This document shows, piece after piece, positions 3,944 to 63,179 of a stretch of DNA of 64,000 bases. Location of the stretch: contig NC_088654.1 in assembly GCF_964019385.1 (NCBI RefSeq), positions 8,053,946-8,117,945 of the forward strand. Direction: 5' to 3'. The notes beneath the pieces were generated by a model. The model was not told the DNA's origin, did not search any database, and saw nothing but the letters and a program-made list of their open reading frames with translations. This DNA comes from Sycon ciliatum (taxonomy: Eukaryota; Porifera; Calcarea; Leucosolenida; Sycettidae). A program made the position numbers and the translations under genes. The first letter of the stretch is position 1. Each line of letters opens with the position of its first letter.

Positions 3944-4037
3944 GATTTGGCCAATGCAATCCTCATGTTGCCTAATAAGCATGAAACCAAGGAGTAGTTT
4001 CGTTCTCGCCTTGGTTGCTCTTATTATTCTGTGTAGT

Positions 4038-17365: not shown

Positions 17366-17459
17366 GATTTGGCCAATGCCATCCTCATGTTGCCTAATAA
17401 GCATGAAACCAAGGAGTAGTTTCGTTCTCGCCTTGGTTGCTCTTATTATTCTGTGTAGT

Positions 17460-27500: not shown

Positions 27501-28743
27501 CAGGCTTCCGAACAACAACAATAGGGGCTGCCCAAGGACTGTTGGACGGATCGACTAAACCCTCAGCTAAAAGCTGCTCAACATGTTCACGAACCTCATT
27601 TGCATGGTGAAGCGGCAATCGTCTAGGGGCTTGGCGAATAGGCTGGCTGCTAGTGGTCTCGATGTCGTGTTTGGCAACACCGGTAGAGCCAAGATCCATT
27701 GCTCCCGTTAAAATTATGTCGCTGAACTCCGAGAGAAGAGACCTGACGGCTGCTGCCTCTTCTGTATCGAGATGACTAAGGTCAAACAACTCAACAGGGT
27801 CAGAACACATATCAGCAGCATTACAGCTTTCAGCAGTACAATCACGCTCATCCGCGGCTTCTGCGGCTTTCTCAACAAAGCAAGATTCGAACATGCCAAC
27901 AACTGTACCCTTGTTTATAGTGACAGGCCGTGGTAGCAGGTTCTGCAACCTGACAGGAACGTTACTGTTCTCACTCACGGTCGTGACCACTCTAGCTGCA
28001 CTGACACAAAATTTATCTACTAACGACTCTGTTGGCTCTACCATTCCGCACGATGGAGACATAAACTCAGTGTCACGTAATCTACCTTGCGTTATCAACT
28101 GAGAATAGCCCTGTAGAACAACAGATTCAGCCAATTGCACTGGAATGGGGTCTGTTTCCACTCTCTGACATAATAGGTGCTTGGGCCCAACTCCCTGTGT
28201 TAATGGAAGGGTCTGATTGCTCAAGCGCAGACAGCCTTGTCCCAGATCCATAATAAAACCGTGCCTATGGAGGAAGTCTATGCCTAATAGTACGTCAGGC
28301 TCAATGTTTGCAACTACCATAGTGTGCTGAAGTTGGAGGCTGCCAAACTCTAGCTGCACACCCACCGCTCCTTCCACAGTCACGCCACTGCCATCAACAC
28401 TTCGGACTGATGTAGAAATTTTGTTTAATTTTATATGCTTATGTTGTTGATAGAATGCTGAGCTGACAAACGAAATCGAACTTCCAGAATCAACTAACAT
28501 GTGGACATCAGTTATGCATATTGAACTTACTTTGCCGATAACATACTGGCAACTGTCAACAGCAACGGAATGGCATACTACATCGGAAGGCGCGGCGGGC
28601 AGCACTTCCGGGCCATGGTGGTTTGGAGCTGACTCTGGACCCTCTATGCCAACTCCCGGCCGTTTCCCGAAGGGCGCTGACGTTGTCCCCGGGGTGGAGG
28701 TGCAGTCGGGCAGTACGCAATCAGATGTTCGGCACTCCCACAA
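24535..28743 (-). pseudogene. Gypsy Pol, broken by two in-frame stops
   Basis: One continuous frame interrupted by TAA at 25996-25998 and TGA at 25489-25491. From the 5' side: protease (LVDSGSS, residue about 83-89), RT (LCVDYRKLN; YIDD at 520-523), RNase H (DTDAS, about 667), integrase with an H..H..C-x2-C zinc module (HNECSGGH, CKACALC) and D, D, E catalytic positions (MDIMGPLP; HTDQGAQF; GLVERMNR). A GPY/F-type C-terminal motif (WTGPYRVVEVIDD) and a Pro/Val/Ala repeat tail follow. Pol overlaps the end of Gag in a different frame, as usual for frameshift expression. The two stops separate RNase H from integrase and split integrase. Confidence 0.92.
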
Positions 28744-28745
28744 TG

Positions 28746-29654
28746 TTAACAGCGGCGCTGTTGTTGGGGTTGCTTCTGGGGTTGCTGCAGCGGTCGCTGC
28801 AAAGATGACAGAGCGGTTTCCAATCGTTCCATCCTTACTAATAAGGCATCCAAACGATCTTCCCTGGCAGCACAGACAGCCGCGGCCACTGGCTGAGACG
28901 CACTAGTAGTAGCGTCCGCTTGGTGTATGGCAAGTGCTCGAAGTCCTTGCTGCAGTGCCTGGTCCAGAGTTCGGGGGTCTTGGCGACGTACCTCCATGCG
29001 CAACTCTCTGCTGTCCAGACCTTCAATGAATTGGTCACATGCCAGCTGGTCCTGCACGAGGTTTGGCAAGGTAGGGTACGCTCTGCGAGACAATCGGCGA
29101 ATCACCTCGCAGTAATCAGACAACGCCTCCTCGCCTCGCTGTCGTCTGGCCTTCAATTCCGCTCTGTGGAGGTCGGTCCTGACGGGTGGAGCAAACCGAC
29201 CCTCCAGAGCTACCAGTAATTGCTGAACATCCTGGCGTGTCGCGACAGGAAGCGACTGGTAGTAGCACTGCGCATTATCTATCAAGTACAACGGGATGTA
29301 CTGTGCCTGGTCCTGCGGCGTCCACTGATTAACCAGGCAAACTTGAGTGAAGTGGTCACGCCAAGTAGTCCAGTCCGAGGCTGCTCCACCATAAAAACGT
29401 TCCGGAGTTGCCCATGGCCGGATGGGTCGAACGGGAGCTGGCTGGGCGGGCTGAACTGGCTGGGCGGGCTGAATTGGCTGGGCGGGCTGCACTGACTGGG
29501 CGGGCTGAACTGGCTGTGCTGGCTGGGCTGGCTGAACTGGCTGGGCTGGCTGAGCTGGCTGAACTGGCTGGGCTGGCTGGGCTGGCTGAGCAGGCTGGGC
29601 AGGACGGGGCGGCTGGGCCGGCGGTACTTGCTGGTTAGGCTGTGCTTGGGCCAT
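28746..29654 (-). CDS. Gypsy Gag, ends inside its zinc knuckle
   Basis: 302 residues from ATG at 29654. The N-terminus is a long Pro/Ala/Gln repeat (units [12 protein letters not shown], residues about 14-70). A capsid-like alpha-helical region follows ([12 protein letters not shown], then [17 protein letters not shown]). The frame ends at a TAA directly after the first Cys of what would be a C-x2-C-x4-H-x4-C knuckle. The remaining knuckle residues (HC, then H and C in correct spacing) are encoded in the same frame just downstream. The stop therefore truncates the nucleic-acid-binding end of Gag in this copy. Confidence 0.85.
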
Positions 29655-33397: not shown

Positions 33398-36300
33398 TCA
33401 AAAACGATCCGGGGCTCTGACTACGCGCCCAGAACGCGTCATCTCCTGCTGCCGTGGTGGTGGTAACGGTGCTGACGGTTCATACGCTGGCTGCTGAGGG
33501 ACGATAGCAGGTTGAGCGGTATCGGCAAGCCCAGGAGCCACGTCCTGTGACGATACTTCTAATGGCACTAACCTTTGGATCGGCCTCAACAGGGTACTGG
33601 TACTCAACTTAACCTTGGCAACACGACGCTTACCATCTCGACCAGGGAATAACTCGATGATCCGTCCCAAACGCCAGAACTGTTTGCGCTTGGTATCATC
33701 GAGAACAAAGACAACATCACCCACAGCTAAAGGGCGCGACATGGTCTGTTGGTGTTTGTTCAGCTGACTTAGGTACTCCACCTCCCAACGATTCTTGACA
33801 TGCTCCAGTGTCCGACTGAGGTAACGCAATCTCGATGACATCTGCGCAGCGTCCAGGGTACCTGCTTGCTTCTCTGACGACATCCAGATGTCACCCATCA
33901 TCATTGCAGGGGTTACTGGTGGCTCATCCAGGCTATCAGACACATAAGTTAGCGGACGACTATTCACCACTGCTTCAACCTCATACAAGAGGGTCTCAAG
34001 CTCCTGGACCTTCAGAAACGCTGTTCCCATTACCTTTTTCAAGGCACTCTTCACTGTACCAACCATTCGCTCATAGAAGCCTCCATGCCATGGTGCAGCT
34101 GGAGGATTGAACATCCATGGCACACCCAGTTTGTCAGATGCCGCCTTGAACGTTGTAGCGTTGTCAGACCTGATCCGAGACGGCAAACTACGTCTCGCGA
34201 CAAACTTCCGAAATGCCATCAAGAATGACTCGGTACTTAAACTATCGACCACCTCCAAGTGAACTGCTCTGGTGGTGGCACACACAAACAATGCTATCCA
34301 TACCTTCGGAGATGACTCACCACGGCGCACGTACAACGGACCAGCATAGTCGATGCCGGTAGTTGCGAACGGCCTCTCGTGAACAACTCGGTCTTCCGGC
34401 AGCGGCGGGCAGACTTCTGAGGCAGCCTTAGCCTTGTAGCGGCGGCATGTAACACATCGCTGAGTAATGTTGCGTAGCGCCCGTCGACCACCGATAATCC
34501 AGAATTTCTGACGGATGAACGACAAGACTCCTTCTACACCTTGGTGCATCCTTTCAACATGCATTTTCTCCAACAGCAACTCGGTCAGATGATGTTTGCC
34601 TAACAGGACTGGGTGCTTGGCTCCATACGCCAACTCGCTGTGCTGAAGTCGTCCCCCGGCTCTGAGCACTCCATGCTCATCCAGAAACGGTGCAAGCTGA
34701 TACACCTTCGACCCAGGCTTCACTGGTTGACCTTGCTTGATCAGCTCAAGATCCTCAGCGAAACATGCGGCTTGAACGATGCGGTACAATACGTTGTCTG
34801 CTGCAAAATAGAGTTCAGCACGAGGCTCAGTGTGCTTCCACTGCAACATCCGAGTCACCATGCCCTGTGCCCTCGACCATTTACTGAATCGGAGCCACCA
34901 TTCCTTATCAGATTCTCGACTACAGGTGGTGGCTGACACTCGTACTTCTACACTGGACTCATCTGTAGCTGCGGTTGAGGATGCGGTGGGCCAGTCATTG
35001 GGCTCCGTGATCCAGGTTGGTCCGCCCCTCCAGAACGGACTACGGATCTGCTGTGCACTACACCCACGCGACGGTAAATCTGCTGGGTTGTGAAGGCCTG
35101 GGCAATGGTTCCACACAATGCCGACCTTCTTCGATATCTCTTGGACTTGACTGACGCGGTTAGCCACAAATGTTTTCCATTTGTACGATGGATTACTGAT
35201 CCAATGAACGGTAGTGAGACTGTCAGTCCAGCCATAGACTTGCGTGACGGTCACACGCAGCTCCTTCACCACAAACTCAGCGTAGCGAGCCGCTAGACAT
35301 ACTGCTTGTAACTCAAGGCGGGCTAACGTGGGTGGAGACACGGGTACCACTTTGGCCTTGGCAAATACCAAGTGCGACTGTCCATTGACGACTGCATACA
35401 AACAACATCCAAACGCTTTCTCACTGGCATCGGCGAAGGCATGAAGCGCAATCGGCGTGTCAAGATTGCAGCAAATCCAACGTGGTATGTCAATGCTCCC
35501 CACTTCGGCCAACTCTCCCCACCATTGCGCGCATGCGGCTGCGATGCCATCAGGCAACTTATCATCCCAGTCGCCTCCGACTTTCCAGGCTTGCTGTAGC
35601 AGTATCTTTCCGGGCACAACTGCCGGTGCTGCTAGACCCAGCGGATCAAACACTGACGCAACACACTTGAGGAGGGATCGCCGGGTCCAAACAGACGGCC
35701 TATCGGACTCGCCTAGCGCTGCTACGCTGAGCAAGTCATCACTGGTTTTCCATTTCAGACCGAGAACTTTATCTCCGGCCTCTGGATCGCACGGGATTTC
35801 GTTGCCTCGCCACTTGCGTAACTCCATGCCAGCATCCGTAAGCACACGCACGCTGAACTCTTGCATCTCCTTAGCTTCCGAGGCATTTGAGACACTAGAG
35901 ACCAAATCGTCAACGTAGAAACTCGTGAGCAAGAGATCAATACGATCTCGCTCTTTGGGTGCAGACAACGCCCGTAGCTCCTTCAAGTGATGCTGAATCA
36001 CCGCAGTAAGCATGTATGGCGAGCAGTTTACGCCAAATGGCAGTTTCGTTAGCCTCCAGGTTAACAGTTCATCGCTGTCGCTTCGACCGGGCCACAAGAA
36101 ACGCAGGTACGGACGGTCTTCGGGATTAACCGCGACCATGAAGAAAGCCTTGCGGATGTCCGCTTGCAGCGCGCTCTTATATTCACGGAACCGTAATAGC
36201 ATACCTGCGAGACTCGGCAATAGCGACGGTCCAGGGTCAACCATGTCGTTCAACGACTTGCCATCTGGCGCCGTCGCCGAGGCATTGAACACCACTCTTA

Positions 36301-38311
36301 ACTTCGTGGTTGCAGCGTGCTCGCGGAACACACCATGATGCGGTACATAGTACCCGGCATCGCTCTCACATGGCTCCAGCTCAATTGCTCCAAGCTCGCG
36401 GTACTCCCTGATCAGCACATCATCATAGAGCGCACGCTTCCCATTCCTCTTCAGCTTTTCAAGAAGCCGCGTTGCGATGACTCTAGCTTGAGCAAAGTTA
36501 TCCGTTGGGCGACGCTCATTTCGCCACAAGAGACCCACTTGGTACCCGCTGCCCTGGCGACATAGCGGGAAAGATGGCAGGTGCTGATGTTGTTCTGGAG
36601 GTTCATCCAACTGCCATAGTTTGTCGATGTGGGCTGTGACACATGACACGGTCACCGGCTGACTGTTTCGACTTGGTGCAGACGCTGGACCAGATAATAC
36701 ATTACCTATCTCTGTGTTCCACACCGTCTCACCATTAACTTCCTTCTTGCTGTGCAGTACCGCGTTGATATAGTCTGCACCAATCAGCATATGTATTTCG
36801 TCTGATGTCCCTTGTTGAGGCTTGTCACTCAGCTCTACTCCCCAACTGTGCCACTGCGCAATGGTCTGCGGACTTGCGCACTTCAGGTCCATCTCAAGCG
36901 TTGGTTTCACGAACGCGCGTACCCGAATGCTAGCGGAGCTACCCTGGATCGTGATGGCGAACTTATCCATGCGCTGTTGGGTTGGTTCCGCGCCGAACGG
37001 CTTCACCTCTACATTTTCAACCCCAACGTGTTCTGCATCGATTGCTGACACCAACGCTGCAGTCACGAATGACGCCTCAGCACCCGAGTCCAGGAACACG
37101 CGAACCTTCGCGTTTCGAGTTCTTCCCTCAACTCGTGCCACTCCGGTCATCAGCCGCACACTTGGCGAGTGTAGACAGCACGACCCAACATTCTTCTCCG
37201 TAACTATCTCAGTCGGTTTCTCCCGGCTATAACCTGCTCTATCCAACACCTCATGTATTAGCAGGTGGTGTTTCCTCTGGCATTTCGTGCATCTCGAGCC
37301 TGACCGACATTCTCTGGCCATATGGCCATACTTAAGGCAGTTCCAGCAGAGTCTCTCTCGCTGCAGAAAACCCTTTCTCCCTTCCAGTGGCAGCGACTTT
37401 AGCTGCTTCTCTGCATCTGCGACCGATATCGCCATGCACTGTGCCGACGCCGTGGGCCTTGGCACGGATCGTTCTACTGGCTTCCTGGCAGTATCACCCT
37501 GTCGTCCGTGCGCGACCTGGTAAGACGCGCCGTGCTCCTGTACCTGGCGCAGTGACATCCCGTAGCACTGCCGTTCGACCAGGTACGTCTTCATCTCAGG
37601 TCCGCATTGCTCCAAGATTACCTGCTTTGCCATTGCTTGCAGCACCGGGGACATTTTTCCTATATAGGCGCTATACTTGGTGTCCACCTCGCCATCTTCT
37701 GTCATAGCGAGTGTGGCCCACACCTCTACTTCTCGGCAAACACGGACAACGTATTGGTGAAACGACTCATCTGACCGCTGCTTGCCTGTCAGCAATGTCT
37801 TCCACGCTTTATCCGGAGTCTTTCCGAGCGAGGCGAGCAACTCTCGCTTCGCTTCCTCTTAATTATTGCATCCAATACATATCCTCTCCGCTTTGCTACC
37901 CGCTAGCGCGATGCGCAGTCGCAGCAGCCATTCGCTTTCTTCGAACTCGTTCTTGGAACAGATGTCCTCGAACAGGTCAAGATAACGCTCCAATGGCTGC
38001 GTTCCATCATATGAGGGGATTTTCATCAACGGTTGACGCCCCCCGCTGTTACTGGGAGCTTCCTCTGTACCTCCCATCGCGGCTTTACCATCACCCTCAT
38101 ACGCATTGGCGATGCGCTCGTTAATCTCCTTTAGTGTTTTGTCAAACTCGGTGCGGAGCGCCTCCTCTCGCCGTCTGGCACTGCGCTCCTCACGCTCTTG
38201 GTACTGTTGGAGCCTCTGCTCCACATGTACCTTCAACAACTCGCCTTCTAATCCTAACCGCTCTCCATTGTCGATAAAGCTGGCTTCCAAATTGTGTAGT
38301 TGCTCTGCCAT
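33398..38311 (-). pseudogene. BEL/Pao Gag-Pol, one in-frame stop
   Basis: The frame opens at ATG 38311 with a charged coiled-coil-like Gag start (QYQEREERSARRREE) and is halted by TAA at 37859-37861. It continues in the same frame to 33398. Counting residues of the downstream 1480-residue part: zinc knuckles at about 165-190 (CWNCLKYGH; CTKCQRKHH), protease DSG at 251-253, RT with YVDD at 642-645, RNase H (HAFADAS, near 825), integrase with a zinc-binding module (CVTCRRYK) and D, D, E motifs (GIDYAGPL; RSDNATTF; GFYERMVG). Everything after the stop is open, so a single nonsense mutation is the only visible coding lesion. Confidence 0.92.
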
Positions 38312-46571: not shown

Positions 46572-46984
46572 ATAAAGCCTGGTCCGTCAACAATGCTCTG
46601 CCTCAATATCTAGCTGATTTCTGTGCCCTTCAAGTGGACAAAATTAATTCGAAACATCGCTCTGGGAAGCGACAATTTTAATGACGCGGAACTAGTACAA
46701 AGAAAAAAGCAACTCAGACGAATGAGGTTTTGTCCGACCCGCCCTGGAACACGCCACCTCGACCTGGTTCTATGCCATCACCAAAGCTGAGCTGAAGCGT
46801 TTAAATATTTTACAATCCATAGTAGCTAGGAAGTATTTGCTACCTAAAAAGGTCAGTGTAGATAGATGCGAAACGAAATCCCAGTTAAATGCCCTTTGTG
46901 ACTTAGAGTTCTTGCACTTTCGCAGACAAGTATCAGCTCTTGTCAGTCTATGTAAACTTAGAGGCAATATGCTTTGGTTCTGCA
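46572..46984. other. Spacer, possible LINE scrap
   Basis: A short segment near 46720-46780 translates to PTRPGTRHLDLVLC, reminiscent of the C-terminal part of LINE endonucleases. Otherwise nothing recognised. Confidence 0.3.
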
Positions 46985-47110
46985 AGAGTGCTCAATGCCT
47001 GATTCAGGCAGAGCGGCGTACACAAAGGCACACAATGAAAACCTTGGCAAATTAATTCCGTTGTGACTCAGAGTTTCATGGCTGAACCAATCATCAGACA
47101 ACGGTAATGG
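46985..47110 (-). mobile_element. Fragment of a PLE terminal repeat
   Basis: Resembles the terminal repeat of the PLE at 55740-56990. Shared text is GTGCTCAATG, GCAGAGCGG, and a hammerhead in the same place and orientation (ACTCAGAGTTTC in both). No coding part remains. Confidence 0.55.
47058..47104 (-). ncRNA. Type-I hammerhead ribozyme, stem II weakened
   Basis: On the minus strand: stem I CCGTTGT/ACAACGG (7 bp), core CTGATGA, stem II TGG/CCA with a T-T mismatch next to the core, GAAA, stem III ACT/AGT with loop CTG, cleavage after C. The G-C pair normally closing stem II is missing, so activity may be reduced. Confidence 0.65.
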
Positions 47111-47254: not shown

Positions 47255-50172
47255 GGGGGGACGGGAGGTTCAGAGGGTCAAAAAATGAATTTCTGAGTTT
47301 TGAACTTTTTGCTATGGAATCTTGTCTTAGGATATTTGAAGTGCCAGAATTTCAAATTTGAGCGTAATCGGGTCAGTAGAAGTGGAGTTATGAGCTAAAG
47401 TATGTCGAGATAAATTTCAAATGTAAATACTCAAATGTTTACAATTGCCTAATTTTGTGATTTTGGTTTAGTCTAAAATCAAGCGTTTTTGATTCAACTT
47501 CGCCAGGTAAGCGACCCTGGCTTCTGTTTTTGTAGTCATGGAGAGCTGACACGTGCTTCCTTGATCGCGTATATGACGTTCTGCAGCGCCACGACGCCCA
47601 CGCGAAGGAAAAAATCTTTGTTTTTTTGTTTGTGATCGTGAAAGTGAACAATTTTACATGGGGAACCGAAAGAGAAGCACCAGCAGCTCTGGAAGTGGCC
47701 ATAGGAGGAAGAAAAGGAGATACTACGCCCCAAAGCAGTCAAGCTCTGTACCAGTTGTGGAAGAAGGCACCGTTGAAGCGGCGCAGAGCGCTTCCTCTCG
47801 GAAGATTTCGTCGAGGCCAAAATGGCTTAGTGATAAATTATGGTCATGGAATTTGAATCTGAGCTTGTGTGCTCGAGTGACAGTGATTCAGACGAGTCGT
47901 CCAGTGATAGCTGCCAGGAGTATGATGATGATGCATTCTATCCTGATGTTGAGGAGTCTGTCTCTGGCTACAAGATCGTGGATTTACAGTGTCTCCAGGA
48001 ACTGATGGATCAATTTACTGTCTGTAGGAAGTGCACGAAGGGAGACATGATCGTCAGTAACTGTCATGACACTGGACTTGGATCGACCCTGCGACTTCAA
48101 TGCGCTTTTGTGGACACAGTGGAAGTACGTCTCTGAGCAAGAAAATTGGCAGGAGCTATGATCTGAATCGACGATCTGTACTGGCGATGCATTGGACGTG
48201 GCCATGGTGGACTCCGAAAGTTTTGCGGCGTAATGAATTTTCCTGCTCCTGTAACGGAGAAAGCGTACCGCAGCCACCAGGAAGTTGTCCTTGCTGCAGC
48301 CGTAAAGCTAGCTGAAACTGACATGGTTCAATCCGCAGCTGAGTTGCGTGCCATGACAGATTCCACCCACGTCGCAGTGACGTTCGACGGCACTTGGATG
48401 CGCAGGGGATATTCGTCGCTGTATGGTGTGTTCGCGTGCATCTCCTTCCAGAGCGGCCGTGTACTGGACATCACAGTGAAGGGTCGATACTGTCACGAAT
48501 GTAAGATCTGGACTGAGAAGAAGCGAAGTGGTGCAATCACGGAGGAAGCCTTTTCAACCTGGCTGGATAATCACAAGTGCAGCATAAACACAGCGGCATC
48601 TGCACCCGGTATGGAGAGTGAAGCTGCGTGCGATATTTGGCAGCGGTCTGTGGGCACACGCGGAGGCCTCATGTACACGTCGTACATCGGAGATGGCGAC
48701 TCCAAAGGCTATAAGAAGGTGTGCGACCTGGACCCTTATGATGGTGTTGCCATCAGCAAGGAAGAATGCATAGGCCATGTGCAGAAGCGTGTTGGCAATA
48801 GGCTCCGGGAACTGAAGCGGCAACACAAGGGCATGAAGCTGAGCGATGGCATCGGTCTCAGTGGAAAGGGCCGTCTCACTGACAGGCAGATGGAGCGTCT
48901 CCAGACCAATTATGGCAATGCCGTCAGGAGGAATGTCGGAGACCTGCAAGCAATGGCCAAGGAGATCTGGGCTGGGCTCATGCACTGCTGCTCAACAGAT
49001 GCTACGCCGCAGCATCAATTCTGTCCGGAAGGTCCAGACTCGTGGTGCAAGTGGCAGCAGGCGCAGAGTGGTGCACGCCAAGCTTATGAGCATAAGAACC
49101 CTCTCCCAAAGGCTGTGTTCGAAGTCGTGAAGCCCATCTACATGCAGCTGTCCGAACGAAGTCTGCTGGAGCGCTGCCAGATGGGTGCAACGCAGAATGC
49201 GAACGAGTCGTTCAACAACGTCATTTGGAGAATGTGTCCGAAGGAAGGCTTCTGCTCCGTCGACACCGTTCAGCTGGCAAGTAGTTTGGCAGTGCTCAAC
49301 TTCAACAACGGCCCTATCACCTTGCTCAGTGTGCTGAAAGAGTGTGGATGCATTGATGGCAATCACACGAAGGCAGCGCTTGAGCTAGAAGACCAATGGC
49401 GTGTGAAGAAGTCCCTCCGCAAGTCATGAGCAGTGGAAAAGGAGAGCAGGAAAAGGAGAAGGAGGCAGAGGAAAGGCTGGGAGGAGACCACTATTGAGAA
49501 AGAGGGCACTACATATGACAAAGGTGGGTTCTGAATGGCAACTTCAGGTCAGATATGTGAAAATATTTCAGTAGCACTCCACTATCAGTCCTTTTTATGT
49601 AATTTTTAGGTGCATTTTTCACTGATTTTAGGGGTATTATGGGCACTCCGCGCAGTTTTTTAGAAATGCTGTACATATCTTGTATGTAAAAGTATATATT
49701 TTCTGGTTCTGTACGGTCCATTCTAGATCCGTTGCCTTCTTAGGACACAAGATCTTCTGTTAGAAACAAAATAATGGACCTTGAACTTCAGTCAAGTTAT
49801 CTTGCGCACGTGCATTGTTATTTCAAGGCTGCAGTGGCACACCATTGGAACTGTAATCGCATTGTGCTTAGGCAACAGCCCTAGCCCCTTGGTACCTGAT
49901 CATTTTGCAGTGTTATGTGTTTATCTTCAAGTGACCATGTTTGAGAAAAACTGCGCAGAAATCATGCCCGGCTATCGCATTTTTTCCAAAATTGCTTTCC
50001 TGCATTTCTCCATGATACCAGTATACTTTCCACAGTTCTTGGTTGCAATGTCGTCAGTGGATGTCAAGGAACATATACTGAAAATTTGAAGGAATTCTGA
50101 TGTTTGAGTGCTGAGATTCAAGCGAATTTATAACGGGCACCGCAATATGGCCAGCGAACCTCCCGTCCCCCC
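47255..50172 (+). mobile_element. Mutator-like DNA transposon
   Basis: 17-bp perfect terminal inverted repeats GGGGGGACGGGAGGTTC (47255-47271 and, inverted, 50156-50172) enclose one broken transposase gene. Size 2.9 kb. No clear 8-11 bp target duplication is visible next to the ends as I place them. The G run makes the exact left end uncertain. Confidence 0.85.
47658..49429 (+). pseudogene. Mutator-like transposase, frameshifted
   Basis: DDE transposase of the Mutator-like superfamily type widespread in animals. The N-terminus (47658, MGNRKRSTSS, basic) changes frame near 47838 into an acidic stretch starting at 47840. The frame then shifts near 48105 (a T run one base short) and shifts back near 48190, after which it is open to 49429. 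Catalytic candidates are D at 48386 (VTFDGTW), D in GDGDSK at 48692-48700 and E at 49205 (NANESFNN). A C/H-rich insert (YCHECKIW) and the phrase ECIGHVQKRVG are typical of the family. The frameshifts would prevent a full product unless they are assembly errors. Confidence 0.85.
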
Positions 50173-52304: not shown

Positions 52305-52520
52305 TATATATACATGGACGAAACAGTTCTGTCCGCAGATTGAGTATTTCGCTCCTGCTCTTGTAGCAGTTGAGCACTCTTGCGTGGGGTAGTGCCTTTG
52401 CTGTTTGCGTTATGCAGAGCTCACTGACTTGTCAGTTTGAGCACTCTGGCAAGGTACGCTCGGGCCTGATTGGAAATTTTTATTTCCATTGCTATCAGGT
52501 TCGGCCTCATTTCCTCTGTG

Positions 52521-52564
52521 CTGCGCTGACGAGTCCACAAAGGACGAAACAGTTCTGTCCGCAG
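52521..52564 (+). ncRNA. Type-I hammerhead ribozyme
   Basis: Stem I CTGCG/CGCAG, core CTGACGAG, stem II TCC-ACAAA-GGA closed by G-C, GAAA at 52546-52549, stem III ACAG-TT-CTGT, cleavage after C52559. Confidence 0.9.
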
Positions 52565-52746
52565 ATTGAGTATTTCGCTCCTGCTCTTGTAGCAGTTGAG
52601 CACTCTTGCGTGGGGTAGTGCCTTTGCTGTTTGCGTTATGCAGAGGTCACTGACTTGTCAGTTTGAGCACTCTGGCAAGGTACGCTCGGGCCTGATTGGA
52701 AATTTTTATTTCCATTGCTATCAGGTTCGGCCTCATTTCCTCTGTG

Positions 52747-52790
52747 CTGCGCTGACGAGTCCACAAAGGACGAAACAGTTCTGTCCGCAG
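52747..52790 (+). ncRNA. Type-I hammerhead ribozyme
   Basis: Identical to the one 226 bp upstream. Cleavage at both sites would release a 226-nt RNA monomer. Confidence 0.9.
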
Positions 52791-52804
52791 ATTGAGTATA
52801 TATA

Positions 52805-53092: not shown

Positions 53093-53487
53093 CACAGATT
53101 CACACTGGAGGCGCTGTACATTCGTAGTTTGAGGCCAGAGCTGTGTCGACAAAAGAAGCACATCAAGGTGCTGCGGCTGTTCAAGCTGCAACCGGACTGA
53201 CAGCTTTATCACGTGTTTGTTCTGGTACTGCATTCCCCTCATGTGTTGTTTCCCGCATTTTTCCACCGCTCCATACATTCTTATGGTAGTGTAGTGTGAA
53301 CTTGAGGCGCGTAAGAATATTCTTGCTGATTCTCTACCCCCAGTATAAATTCTGGCTTCGTTTTCGTTCTTGCTCATTCCCATGTATCTACTGATGAAAA
53401 TGGGTGAAAAGCTTTTAGTATTATGAAATTGACAACCTTGTTGTTGTGTGTATATAAATTTTGTTCGCCTACGTCTCTCTCTCTCTA
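53093..53487 (+). mobile_element. PLE 3' end, truncated copy 2
   Basis: Retains the last 35 codons of the PLE protein (RFTLEALYIRSLRPEL.. to stop at about 53200) and its 3' untranslated end. It lies tail-to-tail with the larger PLE on the other strand, the two meeting at a CT/TA tract near 53470-53500. Confidence 0.88.
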
Positions 53488-55436
53488 TATATATATACAC
53501 ACAACAACAAGGTTGTCAGTTTCATAACACTAAAAGCTTTTCACCCATTTTCATCAGTAGGTACATGGGAATGAGCAAGAACGAAAACGAAGCCAGAATT
53601 TATACTGGGGGTAGAGAATCAGCAAGAATATTCTTACGCGCCTCAAGTTCACACTACACTACCATAAGAATGTATGGAGCAGTGGAAAAATGCGGGAAAC
53701 AACACATGAAGGGAATGCAGTACCAGAACAAACACGTGATAAAGTTGTCAGTCCGGTTGCAGCTTGAACAGCCGCAGCACCTTGATGTGCTTCTTTTGTC
53801 GACACAGCTCTGGCCTCAAACTGCGAATGTACAGCGCCTCCAGTGTGAATCTGTGCGCGCTGTTCCGGGCTGGTGTGATCACACTGAAGCTGCTGTTGCG
53901 TTCCTGCGGGATGCACTCAGGTTGCGCCTGCAAATGCTTTGTGATGGCGCTATCACTTGTCGCCACACGTTTGTCAGGCGGCTTCTTGTACAGCTTGTCT
54001 GGGATATGCTGCTTGATCCTTTCCGAGAATCGCTGACATGTCTCACCAACGTACGTCCGCTCACAGCGACACGCATACTTATAAATAAAATTACTATTTT
54101 CAAGAGTTGGTGAAACATCCTTCGCGATAGACCTGAATGCGGGCCTGGTTGTATAAATTACAATGGGGGATACTGTAGGATAGCAGTTCAAAATTGCAGC
54201 TTTAATCTTTTTGCGGAAGGCAATGCAATTTTGCCCTTTCCACGGCAATTTTGTGATAATACGCGTTGCAGGTTCAAGTTGTGCAGAAGCTGTATCTGGG
54301 CTAGGTTCAAGAACGCTTGTCATGACTCGCTTGAGTACTTTGAGTGGGTAACCGTTAGAACACAGAATATCCTCTAGCTTAGCAATTTCAGCTGATAATA
54401 GTGATGGTGAGCAGATGGTTTTAGCTCTAAAAGTTAATGATCTGATCAAATTGATTTTGTTTCTAGTGTCACAAAACGAGTCCCAGCGGGTGTAAAGACC
54501 TGTGAACGTCGGCTTTCTATATACTGTGGTGAGCAATTCTGTGGAAGAATGCTTAATCAATACATCAAGAAACGGCAATTCTCCATTATTCTCCTCCTCC
54601 ATTGTAAACTGGAGAGCTGGGTGAAGATTATTTAAACGCTCAGAAAATTCTAATGCCAGTTTCCGGTTGTGAAATGCTGCGAATGTGTCATCCACATAAC
54701 GCCTATAGAATTGGGGCCAATGACTGTCTGGAATTGTGTTCTCAAAATATCCAACAAAGATATTGGCTAGCACGGGGCCCAAGGGTGAACCCATGGCTAC
54801 TCCGTCCCTCTGTGCGTACATATTGCCATTGAAACTGAACTGCACGTCTGATGTGGCTTTGAAAAGCAGCTTCTTGAAAAGATCTTGGGGTATTTGCGGG
54901 GCTGATATTTCATCATCATGGTATAGCGACTGTATGCAGATATCTATTGTTTCCTTGAGAGGCACGTTTGTAAAGAGGCTGACTACATCGAAAGAGCACA
55001 GGAACAGCGATCCAGAGTTCTCTGCCTGCTGCTGGCCAAATTCCCTTACTTCATCCACGAACTCGAAGGTATCCTTAGTTGCGTGGGCGGAATATTTATT
55101 GAGGACTGGTTTTAGTAATTCAGCTAACCACTTTGCCATTTCGTGTTGGGGAGCATTGATCATGGACAGGATTGGTCGAAGCGGCACGTCTTTCTTATGT
55201 ATTTTCGGTACGCCATAGAGCACAGGTCGGCACGAGCCAACGGGTCGGATCCGGTCGTAATCTATATTGAGTATTTTTCCAGCCTTTTTGTATCGCAATA
55301 GGTATGCCTGCAAGGCGCGTTCATCCAGGTAAGTGCGGTCATGCGTTTCCGTCGGTCCCAGGAGTTGAAACTTCGATGAATCAGCCAGAATAGCATTCAT
55401 CTTGTCATTGTAATCACTTCGCTGCATTATCACCAT
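53488..55436 (-). mobile_element. Penelope-like element 1, 5'-truncated
   Basis: Body of a PLE on the minus strand. It starts abruptly at a TA tract (55436) inside the RT N-terminal region and ends at the GT/TA tract near 53490 after 260 bp of 3' untranslated sequence. The 3' untranslated part contains a degenerate hammerhead-like motif (CTACTGATGAAAATGGG, minus strand near 53545). Confidence 0.9.
53748..55436 (-). pseudogene. PLE 1 reverse transcriptase/GIY-YIG protein, N-truncated
   Basis: 562 in-frame codons without a stop. RT motifs in order: YGVPKIHK, FDVVSLFTNVP, GVAMGSPLGPVLANIF, YVDD (codons at 54687-54698), LPFLDVLI. The C-terminal GIY-YIG nuclease begins YKYACRCERTYVGET (about 54040-54080) and ends with the typical LYIRSLRPEL. 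The N-terminal part of the RT is missing. The frame also runs through the TA tract into the neighbouring repeat as far as ATG 55538, but that extension is chance fusion. RT and nuclease cores look intact, so loss of the start is the main lesion. PLEs prime reverse transcription at nicked DNA ends. Confidence 0.92.
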
Positions 55437-55446
55437 ATATATATAT

Positions 55447-55600
55447 ACTGACTGACTTGTCAGTTTGAGCACTCTTGCAAGGTACGTTCGGGCCTGATTG
55501 GAAATTTTTATTTCCATTGCTATCAGGTTCGGCCTCATTTCCTCTGTGCTGCGCTGATGAGTTCAAAAAGAACGAAACAGCTTGCTGTCCGCAGATTGAG
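55447..55600 (+). repeat. Partial 228-bp-type hammerhead repeat (+)
   Basis: Two-thirds of one unit, TTGTCAGTTTGAGC through GCAGATTGAGTA, next to the truncated end of PLE 1 and in the opposite orientation. Confidence 0.88.
55549..55594 (+). ncRNA. Type-I hammerhead ribozyme
   Basis: Stem I CTGCG/CGCAG, CTGATGAG, stem II TTC-AAAAA-GAA, GAAA, stem III ACAGC-TT-GCTGT, then C and CGCAG. Same subtype as the large array. Confidence 0.9.
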
Positions 55601-55611
55601 TATATATATAT

Positions 55612-55695
55612 ATTATATACTCAATCTGCGGACAGAACTGTTTCGTCCTTTGTGGACTCATCAGCGCAGCACAGAGGAAATGAGGCCGAACCTGA
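55612..55695 (-). repeat. Partial 226-bp-type hammerhead repeat (-)
   Basis: Inverted relative to the adjacent plus-strand unit. The two meet at a TA palindrome (55600-55620), forming a large inverted repeat. Confidence 0.88.
55626..55669 (-). ncRNA. Type-I hammerhead ribozyme
   Basis: Minus-strand CTGATGAG with stem II TCC-ACAAA-GGA and stem III ACAG-TT-CTGT: 226-bp subtype. Stem I CTGCG/CGCAG intact. Confidence 0.9.
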
Positions 55696-55814
55696 TATAT
55701 ATATATAAATATAGAACAATAGAAGTATTTCTTGCGTCGGCAAAAAAGTGCTCAATGTCCTAAGACAGAGCGGGGTTATACACTCAGACACAAAGGATCT
55801 CCAAGTTTCTCAGT

Positions 55815-55856
55815 GTTGCTACTCTGAGTTTCGTGCAAAAGCACTCTTCAGGCAAC
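55815..55856 (-). ncRNA. Type-I hammerhead ribozyme (PLE 2 repeat)
   Basis: Minus strand: stem I GTTGC/GCAAC, core CTGAAGAG, stem II GTGC-TTTT-GCAC, GAAA, stem III ACT-CAG-AGT, cleavage after A. A different subtype from the 226/228-bp family. Confidence 0.82.
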
Positions 55857-56114
55857 TTACTCTTCTCTCACATCAGTATCCCTTTACATACCAGAAAAAA
55901 AGCACCCTAGGTGGGAATCACAGGTGGAGAAAAGAAGCACGCTAGCCAGTCTAGGTGGGAATCACAGGTGAAGGTAAGTGTGGCAAGTGTGGTGGTGTGA
56001 GCAATCGCGCAGGCCGGGTGGTGTGCAGAAAGTGAAGTGTGGCAGTAGGATGCATGCACATTAGATAGCAGGAGTTCTGTATATGTGTAACAGATAGCAA
56101 GCGCAGTCTACAGT

Positions 56115-56765
56115 TCAGGTCGCCTCCGATAGGAGGTACTTGGTGCTGTGGCGACATTTTGTGACCAGGCTGCATCTGGTGTTGAGGAGCGATGCCTTGT
56201 CACTCTTCATTATGGCAATCTTCTCCGATAGGCATAGGTTGCACCGCTTCGAAGTTTTTTTGTAGGCGCTGGATCTCTGCCTGATTCTCCACGAGATGTA
56301 GACGTCTTCACCTGCCTCCTTCAATGCCCATGCATGCTTTGACAGTTCTGTGCTGTTTCTGTGTGGGGCATTCCGGAACGATGACGTGTGGTTGTTGAAC
56401 CGGAGTTTGAACGGGGTTTCGGAGATGCCGATATACTTCTTCCGGCTGAGATTGGAGTCCACTGTAGCTTCGTACACTATCTCGCTGGCGTTGCAGTCCC
56501 CGTTGAGTGGGCAGTTTGCTTTGACACGGCAGTTATATCTCTTTTCTTCCGGCTGTCTGAGGACTTTCGCGTTGTGGCCCTTGATTATCGAGGCTAAGTT
56601 AGGCGAACAGCTGTAGCTGACTTTGATCGTATTTTTGTTAAATATTTTTCTGAGGGCAGATCCTTCTGGGACATGGCGCTTGACAGGTCTCAGGAATGTC
56701 GCGCCAACATCAGTCTTCACGGATTGGCTGTACGGTGGGTTAAACCACCACCACACTTGCCACAC
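56115..56765 (-). pseudogene. PLE 2 GIY-YIG nuclease domain
   Basis: Open 216 codons from the inverted-repeat junction. A cysteine-rich lead-in (YNCRVKANCPLNGDC) precedes the GIY-YIG core (VYEATV, then KKYIGISETPFKLRF, about 56410-56490) and the helix with NSTELSKHAWAL. It ends CNLCLSEKIAIM.. The RT that normally precedes it is absent and the first residues are encoded by terminal-repeat sequence, so this is the 3' part of a truncated element. It is not closely similar to the PLE 1 nuclease and thus represents a second PLE lineage. Confidence 0.85.
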
Positions 56766-56962: not shown

Positions 56963-57020
56963 TATATCGCTGGCTACAAGCGAGGGTCCCTGGTTCGAGT
57001 CCTGGTGGTGACAGTCAATT
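56963..57020 (+). repeat. tRNA-like B-box segment
   Basis: GGTTCGAGTCCTGG at about 56991-57004 is a good B box and also resembles the T-arm of a tRNA. No complete cloverleaf found. Possible SINE or tRNA fragment. Confidence 0.3.
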
Positions 57021-58291: not shown

Positions 58292-58311
58292 TATATATAT
58301 ATATACTCAAT

Positions 58312-58357
58312 ATGCGGACAGCATGCTGTTTCGGTCTTTTTAAACTCATCAGCGCAG
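58312..58357 (-). ncRNA. Hammerhead ribozyme, array unit 1
   Basis: Core intact. Outer stem I pair lost (ATGCGG instead of CTGCGG on the plus strand), and CTTTTTAAACTC in place of CTTTTTGAACTC alters the base of stem II. Confidence 0.75.
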
Positions 58358-58539
58358 CACAGAGGAAATGAGGCCGAACCTGATAGCAATGGAAATACAA
58401 ATTTCCAATCAGGCCCGAACGTACCTTGCCAGAGTGCTCAAACTGACAAGTCAGTGAGCTCTGCATAACGCAAACAGCAAAGGCACTACCCCACGCAAGA
58501 GTGCTCAACTGCTACAAGAGCAGGAGCGAAATACTCAAT

Positions 58540-58585
58540 CTGCGGACAGCATGCTGTTTCGTTCTTTTTGAACTCATCAGCGCAG
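58540..58585 (-). ncRNA. Hammerhead ribozyme, array unit 2
   Basis: Stem I CTGCG/CGCAG, CTGATGAG, stem II TTC-AAAAA-GAA closed by G-C, GAAA, stem III ACAGC-AT-GCTGT, cleavage after C. Consensus of the array. Confidence 0.9.
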
Positions 58586-58767
58586 CACAGAGGAAATGAG
58601 GCCGAACCTGATAGCAATGGAAATAAAAATTTCCAATCAGGCCCGAACGTACCTTGCCAGAGTGCTCAAACTGACAAGTCAGTGAGCTCTGCATAACGTA
58701 AACAGCAAAGGCACTACCCCACGCAAGAGTGCTCAACTGCTACAAGAGCAGGAGCGAAATACTCAAT

Positions 58768-58813
58768 CTGCGGACAGCATGCTGTTTCGTTCTTTTTGAA
58801 CTCATCAGCGGGG
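58768..58813 (-). ncRNA. Hammerhead ribozyme, array unit 3 (stem I damaged)
   Basis: Core, stems II and III as consensus. The 5' strand of stem I is CCCCG instead of CTGCG, breaking two pairs. Confidence 0.7.
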
Positions 58814-58995
58814 CACAGAGGAAATGAGGCCGAACCTGATAGCAATGGAAATACAAATTTCCAATCAGGCCCGAGCGTACCTTGCCAGAGTGCTCAAACT
58901 GACAAGTCAGTGAGCTCTGCATAACGCAAACAGCAAAGGCACTACCCCACGCAAGAGTGCTCAACTGCTACAAGAGCAGGAGCGAAATACTCAAT

Positions 58996-59041
58996 CTGCG
59001 GACAGCATGCTGTTTCGTTCTTTTTGAACTCATCAGCGCAG
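58996..59041 (-). ncRNA. Hammerhead ribozyme, array unit 4
   Basis: Matches the array consensus in core and all three stems. Confidence 0.9.
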
Positions 59042-59223
59042 CACAGAGGAAATGAGGCCGAACCTGATAGCAATGGAAATAAAAATTTCCAATCAGGCCC
59101 GAACGTACCTTGCCAGAGTGCTCAAACTGAAAAGTCAGTGAGCTCTGCATAACGCAAACAGCAAAGGCACTACCCCACGCAAGAGTGCTCAACTGCTACA
59201 AGAGCAGGAGCGAAATACTCAAT

Positions 59224-59269
59224 CTGCGGACAGCATGCTGTTTCGTTCTTTTTGAACTCATCAGCGCAG
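59224..59269 (-). ncRNA. Hammerhead ribozyme, array unit 5
   Basis: Matches the array consensus in core and all three stems. Confidence 0.9.
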
Positions 59270-59451
59270 CACAGAGGAAATGAGGCCGAACCTGATAGCA
59301 ATGGAAATAAAAATTTCCAATCAGGCCCGAACGTACCTTGCCAGAGTGCTCAAACTGTCAAGTCAGTGAGCTCTGCATAACGCAAACAGCAAAGGCACTA
59401 CCCCACGCAAGAGTGCTCAACTGCTACAAGAGCAGGAGCGAAATACTCAAT

Positions 59452-59497
59452 CTGCGGACAGCATGCTGTTTCGTTCTTTTTGAACTCATCAGCGCAG
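59452..59497 (-). ncRNA. Hammerhead ribozyme, array unit 6
   Basis: Matches the array consensus in core and all three stems. Confidence 0.9.
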
Positions 59498-59679
59498 CAC
59501 AGAGGAAATGAGGCCGAACCTGATAGCAATGGAAATATAAATTTCCAATCAGGCCCGAACGTACCTTGCCAGAGTGCTCAAACTGACAAGTCAGTGAGCT
59601 CTGCATAACGCAAACAGCAAAGGCACTACCCCACGCAAGAGTGCTCAACTGCTACAAGAGCAGGAGCGAAATACTCAAT

Positions 59680-59725
59680 CTGCGGACAGCATGCTGTTTC
59701 GTTCTTTTTGAACTCATCAGCGCAG
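59680..59725 (-). ncRNA. Hammerhead ribozyme, array unit 7 (partial unit)
   Basis: Ribozyme complete although the unit itself is cut at 59847. Confidence 0.9.
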
Positions 59726-59867
59726 CACAGAGGAAATGAGGCCGAACCTGATAGCAATGGAAATAAAAATTTCCAATCAGGCCCGAACGTACCTTGCCAG
59801 AGTGCTCAAACTGACAAGTCAGTGAGCTCTGCATAACGCAAACAGCATATATATGATATATATCTGT

Positions 59868-61190: not shown

Positions 61191-61291
61191 TACAGCCTCC
61201 ACATTCACGCACAGCCCCCACATAGCGATTAGCACTACCAAAATCAACACCCGGTGTTTAGGGCCAGCAAAAACACCAATACCTCTCGTGG

Positions 61292-61301
61292 CATAAATAC
61301 A
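61292..61301 (+). promoter_or_regulatory. TATA-like box of ZNF gene C
   Basis: CATAAATACA, 97 bp before ATG 61389, followed by GGCTTGGCCAATACCAAAC. Confidence 0.6.
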
Positions 61302-61388
61302 GGCTTGGCCAATACCAAACTTATGTTGTCTGATAAGCCTGAAACTAAGAGTGAACTAGACTTGCTGGCCGTTGTGGTTATTTGTAGT

Positions 61389-63179
61389 ATGGCATGTGCA
61401 CCATCGAAGAAATTCAAATGTGGTCGTGAAGGCTGCACACTCAGCTTCTCTCGCGCTCACGAAGTGGCAAGGCACAGGCGGACGCATACACGCGCGTCGA
61501 TTGTCGTACCCCCTCCAGATTCGGCGGACAGTGCTAAGACAGGTGGTGAGACGGGTCAACCGGCCAATAACGTTGTTCAACAGGAGATGTTTTTGCCCAA
61601 CCCGGCCGTGCAAATCCATGGAGCTGGGCTGCCGATGAACACAACAAGCAACAACATGCAACTCTATGATATGCCGAAACCTTTCGGTGGCGACGATGCG
61701 GGTTCGATTCGTATTATAACTGGCAATATATATCAGGACTTCGAATTTTTACAACGTTTAGATCTCAAATCCATCCCTTTGACTCCCCCTCGCAATGCTC
61801 TTGGGATGGAGGAGATGCATCCCTACACGGCCGACGTCTTCGTCACACCACCGGTGCCAGGCGGTATGGGCACGGCAGCAGCAGAACTTGACTTGCTGGA
61901 AGCATCAGCGCCCATGGATGTCGGACCTTTCAATATCACTGATGGCGCAGATGAGGACGCCATCCTCCAACATCTGACCCATTCAGGGCCACAGTCCGAG
62001 TCACAATTGTCCGAGTCACAATCATATTCTTATCGACAATTACAACTTGCTCAATCATCATTCTTGCAAGATCAAACAAGCTCTTTAGTCAGAAGTAGCG
62101 GGCACATAACGCAGACATCACCTCAATGCCGGAATCTGGGAAGTGACATGGCTGGTGCACCAGTTGATGGTGGGAATGACGATACGTTCCCAAGATTCCC
62201 ATCCGTTCCATTATTGTCAGGGTCAAAAGTTTCTCTGCCGGATGATCAGGTAGCAATGGGCTCATTAGCTACCACCAACCCGCCTTCCGGGTCTGCTGGT
62301 GCTGATGCCACCATAAGCCCTAACCAGAAGCACCAGCAGCACCAGCAGCAGCTGCAGCAGCAACAGTACACTATGACCGCTGGTGTAGTGGGACAAGAAG
62401 ATGCCACAGCTTCAATTGCAAATATTTCCATGGTGCATGGGGCCGGCTGGCATGAGTTTCCCTCGACTCACGGGATTGGGTATTCACATGGTTCCTCGGG
62501 GATGACGACGCCACCAGTCAATACGGTGCCAGCTACTGACAATCACGAAGAAGAGATTTGCAGCGTGAGACTGTCATCGAGTGGTGGATCTATACCATGG
62601 AAGCAACGGCCATTGAACCATGTATGTGATTATGGGGACTGCACTCGCCGCTTCCGAAGCAGTTTCGACGTGACCCGGCACATGCGTACACATACAGGTG
62701 AAAAGCCTTTTCAATGTGGAATCTGTCAGCGCGATTTTACAAGGCTGGTCAGCCTGAACGAGCACAAGGTCACACATACTCGTAAGAAACCATACCAGTG
62801 TGTGTTGTGCCCTAAAAGATTTGGTTGGCAGCGGAGTATGCGTCGACACATGAAGGTTCACCAACAGCGAGAATCAAGACCAACCCCAGGCGTGCATCAC
62901 GGAGACTCTCCGGGACGTGTCGGTACACCTTCCGTTTCAAACATGGTGAGCTTGGCATCACTTTCAGTAATAAATGCAACTGGACAGTCATCTCAAGCAG
63001 TCACTGCGTCCCCTATTAGTGCAGCCTCCGTTGCGTCTTCGAATAGCACTGCTGCATCGACGGGCACCACCACCTCCGTCGACGCACAGCAACAGTTAAC
63101 CATGGCAGGCGCATCCACGGTACAGCAACAGCAACAGATACATTATCTGCAGCAACAGCAACCAGAACACCAGCAGTAG
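61389..63179 (+). CDS. C2H2 zinc-finger protein C (1+3 fingers)
   Basis: 596 residues, a more distant paralogue of proteins A and B. Finger 1 has the same C-x4-C form (CGREGC..HRRTH). The linker shares short blocks with A/B (TTSNN, KVSLPDDQ, NPPSGSAGADATISPN) and has a Gln/His tract near residues 314-332. Three C-terminal fingers start at C413 (CDYGDC), C443 and C471, with a TGEKPFQ linker between the first two. A/B have four there. The tail is S/T-rich and ends in poly-Gln. Start chosen at the ATG in TAGTATGG context shared by the paralogues. Predicted nuclear transcription regulator; targets unknown. Confidence 0.85.
   Translation: MACAPSKKFKCGREGCTLSFSRAHEVARHRRTHTRASIVVPPPDSADSAKTGGETGQPANNVVQQEMFLPNPAVQIHGAGLPMNTTSNNMQLYDMPKPFGGDDAGSIRIITGNIYQDFEFLQRLDLKSIPLTPPRNALGMEEMHPYTADVFVTPPVPGGMGTAAAELDLLEASAPMDVGPFNITDGADEDAILQHLTHSGPQSESQLSESQSYSYRQLQLAQSSFLQDQTSSLVRSSGHITQTSPQCRNLGSDMAGAPVDGGNDDTFPRFPSVPLLSGSKVSLPDDQVAMGSLATTNPPSGSAGADATISPNQKHQQHQQQLQQQQYTMTAGVVGQEDATASIANISMVHGAGWHEFPSTHGIGYSHGSSGMTTPPVNTVPATDNHEEEICSVRLSSSGGSIPWKQRPLNHVCDYGDCTRRFRSSFDVTRHMRTHTGEKPFQCGICQRDFTRLVSLNEHKVTHTRKKPYQCVLCPKRFGWQRSMRRHMKVHQQRESRPTPGVHHGDSPGRVGTPSVSNMVSLASLSVINATGQSSQAVTASPISAASVASSNSTAASTGTTTSVDAQQQLTMAGASTVQQQQQIHYLQQQQPEHQQ

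Follow-up and report, generated by a model that had tools for sequence, protein, structure and literature searches.

In their available sections, two reports (PMC7229834, PMC11167929) leave open what mobilises the retrozymes of animals and what makes circles necessary for them. A tandem array of hammerhead ribozymes in Sycon ciliatum raises this question for a single locus. The array lies in a 64,000-nt stretch of contig NC_088654.1 (positions 8,053,946 to 8,117,945), which we call the window. Judging from the sequence, we think it probable that the following hold together: the array is a single insertion of a non-autonomous animal retrozyme; a hairpin that it carries, which we call M, is the initiation hairpin of the reverse transcriptase (RT) of Penelope-like elements (PLEs); and retrozymes with M are copied as circles. 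If this is true, then the common start-site hairpin names a specific PLE group as the retrozyme machinery, M is a motif that can be searched for in other genomes, and the question is reduced to one in vitro assay.

Tandem Repeats Finder (TRF), run on the window, reports a period of 228, 6.8 copies, and 98% matches at 58303-59847, and the minus strand of this region has seven hammerhead cleavage sites spaced exactly 228 nt apart. The exact 228-bp array of seven that the preliminary description had claimed is thus borne out. Read along the minus strand, the array consists of a 163-nt 5' partial unit (59847 to 59685), six full units, and a 14-nt 3' tail.

58303..59847, minus strand (the RNA sense): array of retrozyme A with 6.8 copies of the 228-nt unit, read as a single insertion in (TA)n
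59685..59725, minus strand: first intact hammerhead, 5' strand of stem I and core up to the cleavage site, predicted to cleave after 59685
Minus strand: other intact hammerheads, predicted to cleave after 59457, 59229, 59001 and 58545
Minus strand: damaged hammerheads, with cleavage sites after 58773 and 58317
58303..58316, minus strand: 3' tail beyond the last cleavage site, CGCATATTGAG and then TAT, with the 3' end of the element at about 58306

The TAT that closes the tail is common to, or part of, the (TA)n target. The 228-nt unit has a GC content of 48.2%. The array contains no open reading frame (ORF) of at least 150 amino acids, and by eye we saw no LTR, PBS, or PPT in it.

We searched for hammerheads with a purpose-written finder (stem I of at least 4 bp, stem II of at least 3 bp, and stem III of at least 2 bp), which recovered five of the seven in the array. 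The intact hammerheads have stems I, II, and III of 5, 4, and 5 bp. Of the other two, the hammerhead at 58352-58317 is mismatched in stem I and its stem II is broken, and that at 58808-58773 has a damaged stem I; this agrees with the earlier view that units 1 and 3 are damaged and that five units fit the consensus. Across the whole window, requiring stem I of at least 5 bp and stem II of at least 4 bp gave 13 hammerheads, and none of 60 dinucleotide shuffles gave any. Stem III of the array units is 5 bp, counting A15.1-U16.1, and is palindromic (CAGCAUGCUG), so the earlier label of a minimal hammerhead with a very short stem III does not fit them. The near loop-less stem III ACTCNGAGT occurs in many PLE hammerheads of this genome. 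The assignment of a type I hammerhead to each unit holds for the five units that the finder calls intact, but the Rfam gathering score is not reached: RF02275 gives 28.8 bits for these five units and 22.9 and 20.4 bits for the damaged two, against a gathering score of 52. On the 226-bp sister array (see below), RF00163 gives 30.1, against a gathering score of 34. When the motif is folded by itself with RNAfold, the structure of lowest energy is not the textbook hammerhead: stem II forms, and stems I and III rearrange. In principle, cleavage by the hammerheads could release 228-nt monomers from a transcript of the minus strand. The window also contains two type I hammerheads outside the retrozyme family, at 8637-8680 and 22242-22287 (both on the plus strand), each with a 6-bp stem I and a palindromic stem III; the former is the sole Rfam hit at the gathering level in the window.

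A lack of further copies in the genome had been named beforehand as evidence against a retrozyme. Searching the 538-Mb genome with a 501-bp retrozyme query gave at least 102 matches, spread over many contigs. Copies of a single unit or of part of a unit are present on many contigs, and the arrays range from less than 1 unit to tens of units. The window itself has three more insertions:

52318..52799, plus strand: second retrozyme array, 226-nt units with variant stems II and III, 2.1 copies
55448..55603, plus strand: 5'-truncated retrozyme A insertion with one hammerhead
55617..55697, minus strand: 5'-truncated insertion of the 226 type with one hammerhead, head to head with 55448-55603

The 3' end of the 52318-52799 array in (TA)n is the same as that of the 58303-59847 array.

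To compare ends, we used 36 stretches at or beside the genome matches (L001-L008 were dropped as duplicates), 20 loci with a PLE that we call PLE-1, and the window. BLAST with the unit over this set gave 66 rows, of which 49 had complete flanks; merging copies of the same insertion left 36 insertions. These are not all independent: the 3' flank of L024 is the same as that of L057, and L029, L051, and L052 each contain insertions that are paired face to face. The 3' ends lie at nucleotides 10-17 past the cleavage site in 32 of the 36 insertions (at nucleotide 14 in 21 of them), which is far from uniform (Kolmogorov-Smirnov (KS) p 3e-29), while the 5' ends are spread evenly around the unit (KS p 0.93). 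The remaining four 3' ends, at 5, 47, 96, and 111, look by eye to come from a stretch of retrozyme B (see below) in one case and from copies that were rearranged in the others. Without the window and the loci that were chosen by PLE-1, the 3' end is in the fixed range for 24 of 27 insertions.

Nine insertions have no (TA)n flank, and their target site duplications (TSDs) have lengths of 0, 0, 0, 0, 5, 8, 9, 11, and 15 bp. TSDs of 5-15 bp are thus present in 5 of 9, as compared to 2 of 72 mismatched pairs of flanks with at least 5 bp. Where the TSD resolves the end of the element, it is ...GATTGAG (L011, L022, and L024) or one nucleotide earlier (L028), which is 10-11 nt beyond the cleavage site; L009 is ambiguous. 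The (TA)n flanks contribute an apparent TAT to the 3' end. Overall, the retrozyme insertions sit in AT-rich targets. Because copies with the same ribozyme are dispersed, range from less than one unit to tens of units, and have TSDs and a fixed 3' end, the reading of this locus as a retrozyme is supported.

A second family, retrozyme B, has 237-nt units (L036, L041, and L047), ends in the tail TACAGCATTGGG, and has a body related to that of A (their alignment beats all 2000 shuffles). Ends from the B query were left out because the query runs into the flank. A third hammerhead family, G, was read by eye on the minus strand of L085. In L051 (212-2413), three retrozyme arrays alternate in orientation with (TA)n between them, an arrangement that would fit a preference of new insertions for existing (TA)n.

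In the available sections of Cervera and de la Pena 2020 (PMC7229834), metazoan non-LTR retrozymes are described as tandem units with a type I hammerhead that give RNAs of about 170-400 nt, with no LTR, PBS, or PPT; coral units are 220-240 bp. Their GC content is given as below 45% in the legend of Figure 1 and as below 50% in the text. PLEs co-exist with these retrozymes, and the authors consider PLEs to be strong candidates for mobilising them. Similarly, the family described here has type I hammerheads, small tandem units within a size range of about 150-450 bp, dispersed copies, TSDs of over 4 bp, and GC below 50%, and the genome contains PLEs. It is a new member of the metazoan non-LTR retrozymes. 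Plant LTR retrozymes, as portrayed in the same sections, are also non-autonomous, with a hammerhead and a circular RNA intermediate, but they have type III hammerheads, LTRs, and PBS/PPT, and are about 700 bp. Hammerheads are also combined with retroelements or repeats in terminons and in satellite repeats of amphibians, a likeness that we draw from their description there (PMC7229834).

A text search of the loci for TTGAGCA revealed that retrozymes and the leaders of other hammerhead elements have M in common. M is a covarying bulged hairpin, GCUC-(hairpin)-UU-GAGCACU, in which the sequence of the inner hairpin is free. Retrozymes A and B have two copies of M per unit. In retrozyme A, the fixed 3' end is about 11 nt past the cleavage site, and a gap of 6 nt separates GATTGAG from the GCTC of M1; none of the 36 insertions ends at M2.

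59637..59671, minus strand: M1 with flanks, first of six, found with the M model
Minus strand: further M1 at 59409-59443, 59181-59215, 58953-58987, 58725-58759 and 58497-58531
59798..59831, minus strand: M2 with flanks, first of seven, found with the M model but weaker (15.6 to 19.5 bits)
Minus strand: further M2 at 59570-59603, 59342-59375, 59114-59147, 58886-58919, 58658-58691 and 58430-58463

The M model was built from three cases of equal length (M1 of retrozyme A, L048, and 46984-47018 of the window), which fit it by construction. The model also recovers M in PLE-C (see below), L028, L047, L038, and L045 (E from 3e-4 to 0.06), and it gives scores of about 19 to 14 bits (E from 0.09 to 1.6) for M2 of A and for the two M of B. 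Among 16 distinct rows, 95.7% of cells are paired (67.8% if shuffled), the covariation score is 0.642 (0.132 if shuffled, and at most 0.131 for slid versions, with the alignment having been fitted to the model), and 41 cells have double changes (13.6 if shuffled); for these three measures, 0 of 500 shuffles reach the observed value. The other two of our five measures are not above shuffling (changes on both sides, 5 vs. 4.9; further pair types, 17 vs. 14.6). Because the alignment was fitted to the model, we repeated the test without the model on the listed hits to the M pattern. Among 45 distinct inner loops, which include related loops that are not independent, 33 have a stem of at least 3 bp and 12 have shorter stems; the mean stem is 3.51, as compared to 2.45 for the null and a maximum of 2.91 across 2000 nulls. 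Some listed hits to the pattern, as in L067, have no hairpin.

The M pattern matches the genome 10,289 times (5325+4964), while the reversed control matches 48 times (22+26). Requiring a TTGNGTAY box 2-6 nt upstream leaves 3,025 matches (1561+1464) vs. 0 for the reversed control. Both of these counts take in the retrozyme arrays. We also examined the context of 20 hits, which were hand-picked in contig order to have distinct inner loops and are mostly from families that we had not seen. A hammerhead signature lies within 120 nt upstream, on either strand, at 11 of these 20 loci (with the full core in 4) and lies downstream at 1. A start box with at most 1 mismatch is present at 9 of the 20 loci, as compared to 2.5% of 1140 control windows, and a good start box is missing at the other 11.

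When folded alone, five short stretches with M all formed the bulged hairpin (z-scores of -1.5 to -2.7). Longer stretches of A and B are no more stable than their shuffles (z of 0.13 and 0.90); that of B lacks the M fold and that of A forms the inner hairpin only. In the circular minimum-energy fold of the unit, both M1 and M2 form as drawn. After scans with Rfam, we rejected M as a known RNA family: at the M sites of the window, Rfam 15 finds nothing up to E of 10 except for hammerhead models that reach into M1, and on L086 and L087, which are discussed below, it has no match to M up to E of 1. M is unmentioned in the available sections of the literature that we searched, including PMC7229834, PMC11167929, and PMC7761336, although a structure as such is not searchable by text.

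M is also found in the leaders of PLEs from the same genome. In two PLE families, that of L085 and family E, M occurs twice, and the elements' own 3' ends lie 4-7 nt 5' of M1 or M2. L085 is a tandem PLE array with a period of 2475 bp. Its order is hammerhead (1307), M1 (1375), M2 (1437), and an ORF that begins at the ATG at 1488 (718 amino acids); between the ORFs of the tandem copies are hammerheads, with cores at 1307, 3782, and 6257. By eye, this insertion has a 13-bp TSD (CATTAGGACATCT), and its two ends lie 4-5 nt 5' of M1 and 7 nt 5' of M2, respectively. We then compared its 521-nt leader to the genome (54 matches listed, with 40 of 1518 candidates scored). Among the 54 listed matches, 29 end at 246-256 of the query, just before M2 begins at 258; 2 end at 189 or 191, near M1 at 196; 13 end at the end of the query; and 10 end elsewhere. 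For family E, the ends of L038 map, by eye, to 6-7 nt 5' of the two M in L079. The spacing between M1 and M2 is 62 in L085, 68 in E, 63 in L087, and 68 in retrozyme A.

The L085 protein has homologs at E ≤ 0.001 for 2689 of 7997 scored candidates. Its predicted structure (pLDDT 73.7, pTM 0.56) is similar, according to Foldseek, to telomerase (TERT) chains 6zdq, 3du5, and 6usq (E of 5e-7 to 2.5e-6, TM-scores of about 0.3), and the bacterial DRT9 ranks first. Because of the rank of DRT9, the model makes us sure that this protein is an RT and less sure that it is telomerase-like. Its putative GIY-YIG region has no match in Pfam, but Y594, Y607, and G609, as well as Cys residues, are invariant in the alignment of homologs, and one homolog (P0125) carries PF01541.

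Within the window, the PLE features are:

55704..56765, minus strand: PLE-C, the 3' part of an M-bearing PLE, with a C-terminal piece of the ORF at 56115-56765
Minus strand: PLE-C hammerhead, predicted to cleave after 55820, followed by M at 55744-55775 and then the tail
46984..47097, minus strand: remnant of an M-bearing leader, with a hammerhead-like core at 47053-47097 (which fails the strict finder) and M at 46984-47018
53748..55538, minus strand: RT ORF (RVT_1) of PLE-1, 5'-truncated, running into a retrozyme fragment

The ORF of PLE-C has GIY-YIG-type and Cys motifs by eye and no match in Pfam. We saw a single M in PLE-C; the nearer end is 6-9 nt 5' of it, and we could link no M to the further end. 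In plain alignments, retrozymes A and B match the tail of PLE-C about as well as chance would (95 and 423 of 2000 shuffles are as good), so we sought the kinship through structure. Beside PLE-C, 56966-57015 contains ggttcgagtcc, which we take to resemble the B box of a tRNA; this stretch is perhaps a tRNA-derived SINE.

We considered PLE-1, whose ORF has 838 amino acids from the ATG in L030, as a partner for the retrozymes. We disfavour it: no M was found at its copy in the window (53748-55538), and across 20 PLE-1 loci (L029-L048), we read the M matches as insertions of retrozymes or of other PLEs, with the exception of a match in L030 that is weak (13.4 bits, E of 2.4). The (TA)n at several PLE-1 copies houses retrozyme insertions. 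At the start of the PLE-1 ORF in the window is a long inverted repeat (53404-53546) with (TA)n at its centre, and this repeat has several matches to microRNA families below the gathering score.

Beyond the source genome, we found the M layout in a single case. L087 is a PLE on a scaffold recorded under a gill symbiont of Solemya. The scaffold is probably host DNA, and the homologs of L085 include a protein from Solemya velum. The order in L087 is the end of an ORF, a hammerhead core (which Rfam does not call), M1, 63 nt, M2, and the start of an ORF. Its M matches (15.2 and 13.9 bits) are weak alone; one M pattern occurs in 6 of 1000 shuffles, and the pair occurs in 0 of 1000. L086 is uninformative, as its contig stops at the hammerhead core. 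L086 and L087 are both animal-type PLEs in bacterial records of GTDB and are apparently host contamination. A scan of viral contigs found no relative of the PLEs.

We propose that M would serve as the template-recognition and initiation element for the RT of M-type PLEs. The RT would nick AT-rich DNA and would then start internally, just 5' of M. From such a start, only 11 nt of a cleaved linear monomer would be copied, so the template would need to be closed (a circle) or to be an uncut multimer. Several rounds on a circle would yield tandem arrays in which the 3' end is fixed and the 5' end can fall anywhere. The hammerhead and the circle would then be a device for copying an internally started template in full; because an internal start would be useless on an open monomer, the ribozyme would be tied to it. 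We infer recognition of M by the RT from the position of M, and we also infer the copying of circles. We lean slightly towards a broader reading, in which M is an undescribed cis-acting element of an animal PLE clade, conserved across phyla, that sets internal starts of the RT, and in which animal retrozymes are minimal parasites, built from the hammerhead, the start box, and M, whose circularity is an adaptation to such starts: with a start that lies 11 nt from the 5' end, full copying would require a closed template.

A related system is Poseidon PAc from Anolis. In the available sections of Frangieh 2024 (PMC11167929), this PLE RT starts internally in vitro at two adjacent sites, which define a "tail," and it prefers AT-rich DNA; the start is within the ORF, at an AC-rich stem loop. 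Like the M-type PLEs, PAc has a tandem organisation, a hammerhead by the start of the ORF, and AT-rich targets. Its two start sites and tail may correspond to M1 and M2. Those sections do not describe M, its doubling, or its sharing with retrozymes for PAc. Similarly, the metazoan retrozymes are not portrayed in the available sections of PMC7229834 with a fixed internal 3' start or a motif that links them to their partner. What seems to be new here is this fixed internal 3' start and a start hairpin that is common to retrozymes and PLEs.

Arrays can also change after insertion. The insertion in the window is found again in L010, L012, L014, and L016, with common ends and flanks and with 6, 7, 6, 5, and 2 full units (the window first), which implies that whole units were gained or lost after insertion. 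The five copies lie between 8.11 and 8.20 Mb of C13, so this region seems to be duplicated. We compared full units between exact matches to the cleavage site, with at most 10 per array. Units are identical within L015:1123 (3 units of 230 nt, a length seen in no other array), L018 (6), L021:2574 (5), and L051:1588 (3), and some other arrays vary internally as much as arrays differ from each other. Arrays of several kb in L017, L018, L060, and L063, some with higher-order spacing (mixtures of 228 and 224 in L017), are closer to satellite DNA.

Fixed 3' ends and free 5' ends are also expected if the RT copies a linear multimer that has not been cut, starting at one of its M1 and running through the upstream units, with the hammerhead having some other use. 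Two observations fit this: hammerhead mutants had no effect on insertion in vitro, according to the available sections of PMC11167929, and several arrays are heterogeneous inside. Nevertheless, multimers may not last long, given that the hammerhead is intact in five of the seven cases, and published animal retrozymes accumulate as circles (available sections of PMC7229834). Furthermore, the four arrays of 3-6 full units without differences, including the 230-nt units of L015:1123, argue against uncut multimers, although later homogenisation could equally yield uniform arrays. We consider uncut multimers to be unlikely but a serious alternative to circles. A somewhat less probable view is that M was inherited from a PLE leader but is used otherwise, such as in a translation leader or in transcription, and is near the 3' ends for indirect reasons. 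In L085, M2 (1437) does just precede the start of the ORF (ATG at 1488). On the other hand, two M are kept in retrozymes A and B, neither of which has a long ORF, and the ends of L085 are similarly close to M1 and to M2.

We considered two other explanations. A LINE or another RT might mobilise the retrozyme, with the tie to PLEs being a coincidence and (TA)n being targeted by microhomology; many insertions are indeed in (TA)n, which leaves an uncertainty of a few nucleotides in the exact 3' end. This is very unlikely, given that insertions outside (TA)n share the same position of the 3' end and that by eye we saw no poly(A) end at the junctions. Or, the arrays might be ordinary satellite DNA that spread by unequal exchange and segmental duplication, with the hammerhead being incidental. 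Although the five copies of one insertion differ by whole units and there are long arrays in L017, L018, and L060 (with higher-order spacing in L017 and L018), satellite behaviour leaves the dispersed insertions, with their fixed 3' end and TSDs, and the single-unit and sub-unit copies on many contigs, unexplained. We regard it as extremely unlikely as the origin of the family and as valid for a later process.

The window also contains other mobile elements and genes. A pol/gag similar to that of Gypsy and an element similar to BEL/Pao (Peptidase_A17) are at 24535-29654 and 33398-37840 (minus strand), and an ORF for a Mutator-like transposase (PF20700) is at 48233-49429. Three related-looking ORFs encode C2H2 zinc fingers with glutamine-rich tails (3954-5822, 17376-19244, and 61254-63179).
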